A stretch of DNA of 42,995 nt from NCBI GenBank assembly GCA_937944245.1, contig CALDYY010000003.1, forward strand, positions 1-42,995, read 5' to 3'. A model generated the notes under the pieces. The model saw only the letters and a program-made list of their open reading frames with translations, made no database searches and was not told the origin of the DNA. This DNA comes from an uncultured Saprospiraceae bacterium. Lineage in GTDB: Bacteria; Bacteroidota; Bacteroidia; Chitinophagales; Saprospiraceae. Both the position numbers and the translations under genes were made by a program. The first letter of the stretch is position 1; each line of letters starts with the position of its first letter. This document shows positions 13,083 through 16,211 of the stretch, piece after piece.

Positions 13083-13706
13083 CTATTTTCTACCAAAATC
13101 TGCTGGAATTTCTCCCCATTTTTCTGTTTCCCACTTTAAAATCGGAACTCTAAAGGAGTTGGTTTCTAACCACTTTTCAGCACGAGCTATTACTTGAAAA
13201 AGCACTTCAGTTTTTCGATTTCGTTCTAATTTTGTGTTACATTTTTTCTTTTTTATCCAACCAATCGCAATTTTAGAATCAGAATAGATAGGGATTTGAC
13301 GTTGCTGTTTTTCTAACATAGCCAAGGCATGCACCAAAGCCAGAAATTCACCAATATTATTTGTACCAAGTTCAAATTTTTGATAAAAAAGTTGTTCTTT
13401 AGTTTTGGTATGTACTCCTTGATATTCCATTACACCAGGATTACCACTACTTGCACCATCCACTGCAATACTTTCCCAAATAATATTTTGCTGACTATCT
13501 AATGGTTCTTTTTCCTTTTTGTTTGCTTTTTTGATAGCGTCGCTGTAATCGCCATGAAATGCTTTTTCTGCCTCTTCTAGACTCGAAAAAGATTTATACT
13601 TTGCATCGGAATAGCCTTTTATTTGTAACTGACATTCTGTCCAGCTCTTGTATATTCCAGGCTGATTACCTTGCCAAACAACGTAATATTTATTTTTAGT
13701 TGTCAA
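13083..13706 (-). CDS. Ribonuclease HI with viroplasmin-type N-terminal domain
   Basis: 207 residues from a TTG start at 13706; no ATG is available upstream or near, and the reading KYYVVWQGNQPGIYKSWTEC matches the normal start of the Caulimovirus VI (viroplasmin-like) RNA-binding domain at residues 6-50. The RNase H domain (about 78-207) has all four acidic residues: Asp83 (VDGASSGNPG), Glu120 (NNIGEFLAL), Asp143 (YSDSKIAI) and Asp203 (PADFGRK). It degrades the RNA strand of RNA-DNA hybrids. It begins one base after the stop of the DUF6909-type gene, which suggests coupled translation. Confidence 0.9.
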   Translation of the reverse strand: MTTKNKYYVVWQGNQPGIYKSWTECQLQIKGYSDAKYKSFSSLEEAEKAFHGDYSDAIKKANKKEKEPLDSQQNIIWESIAVDGASSGNPGVMEYQGVHTKTKEQLFYQKFELGTNNIGEFLALVHALAMLEKQQRQIPIYSDSKIAIGWIKKKKCNTKLERNRKTEVLFQVIARAEKWLETNSFRVPILKWETEKWGEIPADFGRK

Positions 13707-13707
13707 T

Positions 13708-15417
13708 TTATAATGCTGGATTTAATATCTTACTCAATATTTTTGAAGTTACCAAATAAGTCGGTAATACGCCTTCCAAACCCAAGCCACCAGAAGCCAA
13801 AGTCGCACCTGTAACTAATGGATTATCAGAGGCATAATAAGCATACCGAGTAACGACATCTCTACGGATACTATTACGAATTTTAGAAGCTGCTTGTATC
13901 GCTTTTTGATAATGTGCGCCCTCCATTTCTAAGCCTACTGCCCTCCAAGAAGAATCCAAAAAATAGCGCAATATTTCTTTATTTTGAAGCGAAGTGCCTA
14001 AAACAGTAACCATTGGTCCTTCAAATATTTTTAAGCCATATCCTTCAAAATCTGCTTTTGTGAAATCATTTTCTACTGGATAATTATCGGCTGTACCTTC
14101 AAACACATGAGCCGTAGCCACCATAATGTCGCCTTTATCTCCCTCTAGTATCCCCGCTTTACCCATAATGGAAATAGAACACACGTCTAGCACATGATTT
14201 TCCTCTCCTTGCTTTAAATCATAGGGTTTTAATAGTTCGTCCATAGCCTCAAAGGCTTGTTCGCCAAAAGCATAATCCATAACAATTAAAATAGGATAAG
14301 CCTTTTTTATTTTTTCAACATTATAATTAATTTCCGAAGGTAATTCGTTGAATTGTAGGTGCGTAGTGTCAAATATTTGCACCCCAATGTTCGTTCCACT
14401 TTTATCTTCAAAATAGTACATTCCATTTGCCAAAGCATATTCTTCTACCTCCTTGCGCAAAGACTTAGCAGAAGATTTACTCAATGCTTCCACTAATTCT
14501 AAAAAAGGAGTATCAGCATATTGTTCTTTCAAAGCAGTAGAGGCGTAAAAACAGTTCATTACACTATGCAAATTTGCACTTATAATGTGAATAGGACGAC
14601 CTAACCATTTTTTTTCTGCCAAAAAATCTTTGATGTTATCTGCCCATAACTCTCCATAAATGTGATGTCCAACACGTTCGCGTAAAGCAGAAGAAAAAGA
14701 AATCTCACGGTCTTCGTTATTTGCAAATTCTTGGATAGAGCGCCTGCCTAACCAACATATAATGTGAAAAAGACTGTTGACGTTCGGCATAGCCAATTGA
14801 AATTTTTCATAGGCTTCCATCGTTTCATTATAAGTTCTACCTAAAATGGTACTCAAATAAGTAAAGGCTACTTCCTTGTTAAATTCCTCTCCTTGTGCTT
14901 CTTTTTCTACAATTTCCTCTAACATCAACCAATCTCGCCTTCTATTGCCTTTACTATCTAAACTATTATTTCGTATTTTTTCTGCTTCACAATACATAAA
15001 AGTAAGGTGGGTCAAAACATCGTAAATATCACTATGACCGCGTGTCATTTCGATAAAGATTTGATTTTTATCAATTCGATAGCAATTTCTACGGCGTTTG
15101 GGCGGCACAATCGCCTGAAAACTAGCATTCTCAAAACCTTCTCTTGAAATCAAACGGATGTATTGGCACTCTTCAATTCCTTTGGGTAAGCGCTGAAAAA
15201 TATACAGTAAGCCATCTAATTCTACCTTTTCCGTGTCATTTAATAGACCATAGATTTCAGGCTCCAAAGTACGTAGAGCATCAATAATGGCTTTGCCTGA
15301 ATCTCCTAATGGTTTGTAGCTACCGCGAATGAATAAATGTCGCATCGCAATATACAATCGCTGGATAGCTTCTCTCGACCTTTGCGCCGCAGTTCGTCGA
15401 ATCTGATTAACTTTCAT
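13708..15417 (-). CDS. DUF6909-like protein with cryptic nucleoside-phosphorylase-like C-terminus
   Basis: 569 residues from the ATG at 15417; the frame is open to 15492, but the extra 25 residues are Lys/Cys-rich and overlap hisIE, so the later ATG is preferred. The N-terminal half starts MKVNQIRRTAAQRSREAIQR and is mostly helical; I recall it as DUF6909. The C-terminal third shows GKAGIL.GDKGDIMVAT, GLEMEGAHYQKAI and YYASDNPL, in the order and spacing of the nucleoside phosphorylase/AMP nucleosidase fold (G-x-x-G...GD, D/E-M-E, S-D). No signal peptide, so cytoplasmic. It lies between hisIE (34 bases) and RNase H (1 base). Enzymatic activity is inference only. Confidence 0.8.
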   Translation of the reverse strand: MKVNQIRRTAAQRSREAIQRLYIAMRHLFIRGSYKPLGDSGKAIIDALRTLEPEIYGLLNDTEKVELDGLLYIFQRLPKGIEECQYIRLISREGFENASFQAIVPPKRRRNCYRIDKNQIFIEMTRGHSDIYDVLTHLTFMYCEAEKIRNNSLDSKGNRRRDWLMLEEIVEKEAQGEEFNKEVAFTYLSTILGRTYNETMEAYEKFQLAMPNVNSLFHIICWLGRRSIQEFANNEDREISFSSALRERVGHHIYGELWADNIKDFLAEKKWLGRPIHIISANLHSVMNCFYASTALKEQYADTPFLELVEALSKSSAKSLRKEVEEYALANGMYYFEDKSGTNIGVQIFDTTHLQFNELPSEINYNVEKIKKAYPILIVMDYAFGEQAFEAMDELLKPYDLKQGEENHVLDVCSISIMGKAGILEGDKGDIMVATAHVFEGTADNYPVENDFTKADFEGYGLKIFEGPMVTVLGTSLQNKEILRYFLDSSWRAVGLEMEGAHYQKAIQAASKIRNSIRRDVVTRYAYYASDNPLVTGATLASGGLGLEGVLPTYLVTSKILSKILNPAL

Positions 15418-15451
15418 TCTGATTTTATTTTTATGTAGTACACTGCTTTTA

Positions 15452-16060
15452 TTATTTTTCTTTGTGCCTTTCTTGCAGCACTGCAACAACATCTTTTAAG
15501 GATTTTCCTTTGGCAGTCAGCAAAACAAGGTAGTGATACATTAAGTCAGCCGCTTCGTTTAAAAACAAAACGTCATTGTTGTCTTTAGCTTCAATCACTA
15601 ATTCGACAGCCTCCTCCCCTACTTTCTGGGCAATTTTGTTCATACCTCGCTCAAATAGTTTAGAGGTGTAGGCACCTTCTTTGGGATTAGCCTTTCGATG
15701 TTGTATGACACGTTCTAAATGCCAAAGAAAATTGGATGCTTCGTTCGTTTCATCAAAACAGGTATCGCTACCCGTATGACAAACTTCTCCCACTGGATTC
15801 ACTTTTACCAACAAAGTGTCGTTATCGCAATCACTCTTCATGCTTACCAAATGCAGAAAATTACCAGAAGTTTCTCCTTTCGTCCAAAGCCGATTCTTTG
15901 TTCGGCTAAAAAAAGTAACTTTTCTTTCCTCTAATGTTTTGGATATAGCTTCTTTATTCATAAATCCAAGCATTAGCACCTTATCCGTTTGCGCATCCTG
16001 AACGATAGCAGGAATTAATCCATCGGATTTTTCAAAATTCAATTGCTCTATATCTATCAT
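15452..16060 (-). CDS. hisIE: Bifunctional phosphoribosyl-AMP cyclohydrolase / phosphoribosyl-ATP pyrophosphatase
   Basis: 202 residues from the ATG at 16060. The HisI part (about 1-112) has FFSRTKNRLWTKGETSGN, the Asp cluster SDCDND and the zinc cysteines Cys94 and Cys101 in CHTGSDTC. The HisE part (about 115-202) has KVGEEAVELVIEA and NEAADLMYHYLVLL with its Glu/Asp ligands. The enzyme carries out steps 2 and 3 of histidine synthesis, acting on phosphoribosyl-ATP in the cytoplasm. No other his gene is in the window, so it is separated from the pathway's remaining genes or is the far end of an operon; the upstream side (16061-16211) shows none. Confidence 0.95.
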   Translation of the reverse strand: MIDIEQLNFEKSDGLIPAIVQDAQTDKVLMLGFMNKEAISKTLEERKVTFFSRTKNRLWTKGETSGNFLHLVSMKSDCDNDTLLVKVNPVGEVCHTGSDTCFDETNEASNFLWHLERVIQHRKANPKEGAYTSKLFERGMNKIAQKVGEEAVELVIEAKDNNDVLFLNEAADLMYHYLVLLTAKGKSLKDVVAVLQERHKEK

Positions 16061-16211
16061 ATTCAATTACTAAAACATTTTATAAATAAAAATGTATCAT
16101 CAATAACTATTCACTAAATCAACACTTATTTCTTTTATCTGCACAAGATAAAAAGGTATTTTCTATCTCTATATGTTGAAGAAACTTTACCTTTACGACA
16201 AAAAATTGCAT

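Follow-up and report, generated by a model that had tools for sequence, protein, structure and literature searches.

We identified a DUF6909 protein in the analysed stretch of DNA (the window, 42,995 nucleotides from an uncultured Saprospiraceae bacterium) that is probably an N-glycosidase of the NP-I (nucleoside phosphorylase/nucleosidase) type standing in for AMP nucleosidase (AMN) in part of the Bacteroidota. This reading is based on the fold of its C-terminal domain, on the invariance of its putative active-site residues and on its mutual exclusion, genome by genome, with the short AMN found in Bacteroidota (TIGR01721 AMN-like, NF005500). We do not claim membership in the AMN family, as the AMN models do not match the protein.

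The DUF6909 gene and its neighbourhood

The gene and its two neighbours in the window are placed as follows:

13708 to 15417, minus strand: DUF6909 gene, 569 amino acids (open frame; Pfam PF21850, E 9.2e-61; sole copy in the genome)
15452 to 16066, minus strand: hisIE (PRA-CH, PRA-PH), the upstream neighbour (Pfam)
13083 to 13706, minus strand: RNase H with an RNase H1 N-terminal domain, the downstream neighbour (Pfam)

The minus-strand frame has no internal stop, and the plus strand across the same positions is full of stops. Its product scores 206.2 bits against PF21850 (gathering score 27), in agreement with the initial annotation, which had named a DUF6909-type protein here; the Pfam library describes the family as one of unknown function and says nothing more. 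An upstream in-frame ATG at 15492 would give a protein of 594 amino acids, the additional 25 residues (15418-15492) overlapping the end of hisIE. We adopted the 569-residue form because alignments to relatives begin at its residues 1-11. A scan of species genomes confirmed at least 589 relatives, the best 80 of which are all Bacteroidota by title, the nearest being mostly Saprospiraceae, and 14 named control genomes held no DUF6909 (0/14). The window's protein has no match in NCBIfam, and the literature searched contained no mention of DUF6909 or PF21850. We also considered and rejected a phage or defence gene, having found no match in phage records, no PADLOC family and one PHROG at E 0.15. 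Among viral predicted structures there were two matches at E ≤ 0.001, annotated as nucleoside or purine phosphorylases.

From the position of the gene between hisIE and RNase H, a role in adenine-nucleotide or nucleic-acid-linked salvage or signalling had been suggested. Both genes do flank DUF6909 on the same strand in the window, an arrangement that would suit a link to histidine biosynthesis or to RNase H. Neither, however, was found at any of the 124 other DUF6909 loci (tblastn, E ≤ 1e-4), while the control query DUF6909 was recovered at 124/124; 62 of these loci are at least 9 kb long, and the other 62, below 9 kb, test near neighbours only. We therefore rejected hisIE and RNase H as parts of a DUF6909 system, as far as tested, and regard such a link as exceedingly unlikely. 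With these counts the argument from neighbours falls away; the adenine-nucleotide role itself gains from a different source, since AMP nucleosidase is the best functional guess by way of the exclusion with TIGR01721 described below. Coarse clustering of 80 loci revealed no neighbourhood conserved across the family, recurrent neighbours being confined to particular lineages (one locus, L009, showed no anchor). In Algoriphagus, the peptide methionine sulfoxide reductase MsrA is often encoded just upstream of DUF6909 (e.g., L069 and L053), and a GH3-family protein takes that place in several Flavobacteriaceae loci (e.g., L071, L075 and L078).

Fold and putative active-site residues

The protein is divided into two parts:

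14653 to 15417, minus strand: N-terminal part, residues 1-255, mixed helix and strand and then helices (full-length model)
13711 to 14652, minus strand: NP-I domain, residues 256-569 (VIA and Foldseek on the model)

An AlphaFold2 model of the full-length protein, built from 49 sequences less than 72% identical out of 111 (the window and 110 loci), has a mean pLDDT of 91.2 and a pTM of 0.87. VIA-align superposed model residues 256-566 on the DeoD phosphorylase 1xe3_E with a Z of 19.6 and an rmsd of 2.7 Å over 213 of 234 residues. DeoD and uridine phosphorylase form its best rows; the 50 matches listed have Z of 18.3-19.6, and no AMN chain is among those 50. Foldseek returned 365 matches in the PDB at E ≤ 0.001, the best 50 of which are all NP-I enzymes, led by the Salmonella AMP nucleosidase 2guw (2.0e-7, 400 columns, rmsd 11.3) and followed by MTAN (3.3e-7), uridine phosphorylase (3.5e-7), and then PNP and futalosine hydrolase. 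On the predicted structure, we take it as firm that residues of about 256-569 adopt the NP-I fold. The predicted fold by itself leaves the NP-I subfamily undecided and does not single out AMP nucleosidase.

The initial annotation had proposed an NP-I-like domain in this protein and had set structure prediction with a fold search as the test beforehand, and that test yielded the NP-I fold. It had placed the domain in the last third, which is too short, as the domain covers over half of the protein. Its description of the domain as hidden holds: no PDB sequence match for the window's protein alone is better than E 0.18, and PF01048 (PNP_UDP_1) does not match it, the matches in other members being weak and below the cut-off. 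Such weak PNP_UDP_1 matches recur in 20 of 49 DUF6909 members (best E 0.0015), the next Pfam family, with DUF6909 itself excluded, reaching 4/49. This recurrence and the strong fold match take the motif parallel with AMN, noticed from the letters alone, beyond chance.

Given that DeoD and uridine phosphorylase are the best VIA rows, the protein might be a nucleoside phosphorylase of the PNP or uridine phosphorylase type. The window's own genome, though, already has a PNP exceeding the NCBIfam cut-off, and by eye S285 and I417 of DUF6909 seem to fall at the positions of the phosphate-binding residues R24 and R87 of DeoD; we therefore find a phosphorylase very improbable. That PNP and one futalosine hydrolase are the only PNP_UDP_1 matches in the genome at E ≤ 0.1, and there is no TIGR01721 match, so AMN activity would otherwise be missing. 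A point against the AMP nucleosidase reading is that the genome (G000; L209-L211), listed as 100% complete, has no Apt over the TIGR01090 cut-off (best 2.7e-9), which leaves adenine reuse without explanation.

Within and around the putative active site we mapped the following residues and motifs, with conservation counted over 125 aligned DUF6909 homologues, the window included:

14572 to 14574, minus strand: N282, proposed counterpart of the ribose-side N205 of AMN (125/125; paired by eye, ISANLHS with LFTNYTR)
14146 to 14163, minus strand: GKAGIL, residues 419-424, the glycine loop of NP-I enzymes, whose Lys is also seen in the short AMN GKCGG (G419-G422, 125/125)
14128 to 14133, minus strand: GD, residues 429-430 (D430, 124/125)
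14080 to 14100, minus strand: EGTADNY, residues 440-446, a motif common to the short AMN family (EGTSNDY; pattern count)
13981 to 13995, minus strand: TSLQN, residues 475-479, lying about where AMN has its R381-N382-W383 loop (correspondence by eye)
13921 to 13929, minus strand: EME, residues 497-499, proposed counterpart of AMN M404/E405 (125/125; hhalign)
13816 to 13830, minus strand: SDNPL, residues 530-534, with D531 as the proposed catalytic Asp (AMN D428, SDKPL; 125/125; hhalign)

All of G419, K420, A421, G422, E497, M498, E499, S530, D531, N532, P533 and L534 are found in 125/125 homologues, as are the T, S, L and N of TSLQN, the Q being present in 124/125. GKAGIL, GDIMVAT, GLEMEGAHYQ and YYASDNPL occur in the order originally read, and E. 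coli Amn does carry the GHCGGL, GDYVLA, DMES and SDKP to which they had been likened. The acidic residues are kept in the homologues (E497, E499 and D531 in 125/125, D430 in 124/125); neither their loss nor a different fold, the two outcomes held in advance to speak against an NP-I-like domain, was observed.

In a published account (PMC9584410), AMN contacts include N205 on the ribose side, M404, E405 and D428, and the loop contacts R381 and W383 hold AMP. The DUF6909 residues proposed to match the first set, N282, M498, E499 and D531, are invariant (125/125); hhalign pairs the EME of DUF6909 with the DME of AMN and SDNPL with SDKPL, and N282 is paired by eye. For R381 and W383, alignment by eye gives no evident Arg or Trp counterpart in DUF6909, which has TSLQN there instead. 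A nucleotide sensor that has the NP-I fold and no catalysis would be in keeping with the large additional N-terminal part and with the failure of every enzyme family model to match, but invariance of D531, E499 and N282 is not expected of a dead enzyme, and we consider a sensor very improbable.

The N-terminal part (residues 1-255) is well predicted within the whole-protein model, and its near-invariant basic residues include R26, R108, R110 and R126. PF10423, the AMN N-domain, has no match in the window's protein at E ≤ 10. Kinship to that domain, considered for a by-eye likeness near TRG/TRP, was rejected, as the hhalign score was reached by 22/100 shuffles and ungapped profile windows did no better than shuffles.

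Relation to the short AMP nucleosidase

At the level of sequence, kinship between DUF6909 and AMN is marginal. An hhalign comparison with the short AMN family scored 25.8, a value reached by 1/100 column shuffles; the corresponding figures were 3/100 for UP/PNP-like proteins (n = 8), 6/100 for MTAN/futalosine hydrolase (n = 4) and 8/100 for the proteobacterial AMN C-domain (n = 12), all of them small sets, and against E. coli Amn alone nothing was found. When a DUF6909 profile was run against 72 NP-I sequences, the top 22 rows were all short AMN-like, at a best HMMER E of 0.02, which fails the HMMER inclusion threshold. TIGR01717 and TIGR01721, the latter of the model type 'hypoth_equivalog', do not match the window's protein and are absent among the 15 families listed for 49 DUF6909 members. 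A signature made of GKxG[GI] and, no more than 40 residues further on, EG[TS]xxxY, chosen post hoc once an alignment had been viewed, occurs in 121/125 DUF6909 proteins, 35/39 short AMN-like proteins and 0/33 other NP-I proteins (9 E. coli-type AMN among the TIGR01721 hits, 12 proteobacterial AMN, 8 UP/PNP-like and 4 MTAN/futalosine hydrolase). EG[TS]xxxY alone is present in 122/125 and 35/39, respectively, and in none of these four control sets (0/9, 0/12, 0/8 and 0/4).

The strongest new evidence for the role of DUF6909 is that it and the short AMN exclude each other. The window's own family was sampled with 170 genomes, of which 70 have DUF6909 and 90 a strong TIGR01721 match (89 over the cut-off, plus G798, where the match is split into two pieces below it), with neither in 10 and both in 0, where independence would predict 37; exactly one of the two is thus present in 160/170. 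Several of the 70 DUF6909 genes are partial, in fragmented assemblies (e.g., G702, G742 and G745). A sample of the class (395 genomes) gave 32 with DUF6909, 255 with TIGR01721 over the cut-off, 108 with neither over the cut-offs and 0 with both (20.7 expected). In a sample spread over the phylum (296 genomes) the counts were 43 and 47 over the cut-off, with 0 for both, and all 43 DUF6909 genomes belong to the window's class. Because the three samples overlap and the exclusion statistics ignore phylogeny, the hypergeometric values of 2.5e-37 and 3.0e-16 overstate the case. Weak TIGR01721 matches below the cut-off do accompany DUF6909 in 7/70 genomes of the family (3.0e-4 to 2.1e-8; the open frames are 236-292 amino acids long), 2/32 of the class sample and 5/43 of the phylum sample. 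We read these as other NP-I paralogues; in G029, one such genome from the wider sample, the matched site fits a uridine phosphorylase model at 2.7e-26 versus 1.5e-4 for TIGR01721.

By genus, DUF6909 occurs in 48 and TIGR01721 in 62 of 112, most genera holding one type only. Both types are found only in genera g313 and g370, in different species, and at a higher rank four families (f1, f8, f51 and f95) each include some genomes with DUF6909 and others with TIGR01721. These within-genus and within-family cases argue for several independent switches between DUF6909 and the short AMN. Replacement of the AMN gene in place was tried as an explanation and rejected, as two same-genus pairs had no genes in common around it by protein BLAST (one of the four stretches is 5.6 kb). 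No PF10423 match over the cut-off was found in 99 Bacteroidota genomes. An E. coli-type AMN (HYTGT, GHCGG; 342-380 amino acids as extracted) is present in some Bacteroidota of other classes (L174-L178 and L190-L193), matching TIGR01721 at roughly 1e-41 to 1e-47; the PF10423 search missed AMN in genomes common to both searches. By title and abstract opening, none of the papers found on AMP nucleosidase in Bacteroidetes, Flavobacterium or Bacteroides concerns this enzyme, and for Porphyromonas no paper was found.

As an alternative to AMP, the substrate could be another nucleotide, such as GMP, IMP, a deoxynucleotide, NMN or a modified purine nucleotide, and the exclusion would then reflect one pool managed by different routes. 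A different base would suit the invariant T, S, L and N, with Q at 124/125, where AMN has R381-N382-W383, and several NP-I subfamilies are tied in fold score. Inside the window's family, however, DUF6909 takes over from the short AMN almost one for one, and both proteins have the GKxG...EG[TS]xxxY pattern; this speaks against such a nucleosidase, which we hold to be unlikely.

Proposed activity and comparison with known enzymes

For the favoured AMP nucleosidase reading, the closest comparison is with the short Bacteroidota AMN. It is like DUF6909 in the GKxG...EG[TS]xxxY pattern, in the active-site Glu and Asp and in NP-I membership, and the two alternate in a single phyletic niche. With about 260 amino acids, however, the short AMN lacks the 255-residue N-terminal part; it has RRxW where DUF6909 has SLQN, and its models do not match DUF6909. 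The nearest solved chain for the short AMN is PDB 1ybf. E. coli-type Amn (TIGR01717, with a PF10423 N-domain; PDB 1t8r, 2guw and 7uwq) resembles DUF6909 in its two-part build with an NP-I C-domain and in SDKPL, akin to SDNPL, and this type is the top Foldseek row. Unlike DUF6909, it has GHCGG in place of GKxG and lacks EG[TS]xxxY, and no support was found for a relation between the two N-terminal parts. DeoD-type PNP, uridine phosphorylase, MTAN and futalosine hydrolase have the same fold as the DUF6909 domain, but the signature is absent in the 12 sequences sampled from them and their profile scores are weaker than those of the short AMN.

The data show the fold, the invariant residues and the exclusion with the short AMN; we infer hydrolysis over phosphorolysis, AMP as the substrate and the role of the N-terminal part. 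In the domain of residues 256-569, N282 and E499 would lie on the ribose and base side of a bound purine 5'-nucleotide, and D531 would help the base leave. With AMP as the substrate, the products would be adenine and ribose 5-phosphate. By analogy with E. coli-type AMN, the N-terminal 255 residues may be regulatory or may close over the phosphate end. We also lean, if only slightly, towards DUF6909 as an AMP nucleosidase of a third class with a structure of its own, in which an NP-I domain with a new recognition loop, TSLQN instead of RxW, is joined to a new N-terminal domain of about 250 residues, and which has repeatedly traded places with the short AMN, even within a genus from one species to another.

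With its at least 589 relatives, DUF6909 is a widespread Bacteroidota family without a name. A functional guess with so clean a genetic prediction, either gene but never the two together in the genomes sampled, makes the family directly testable. If the AMP nucleosidase reading is true, it would supply a missing step of purine metabolism in many Bacteroidota; a different nucleotide substrate, should that be the case, would be at least equally informative.
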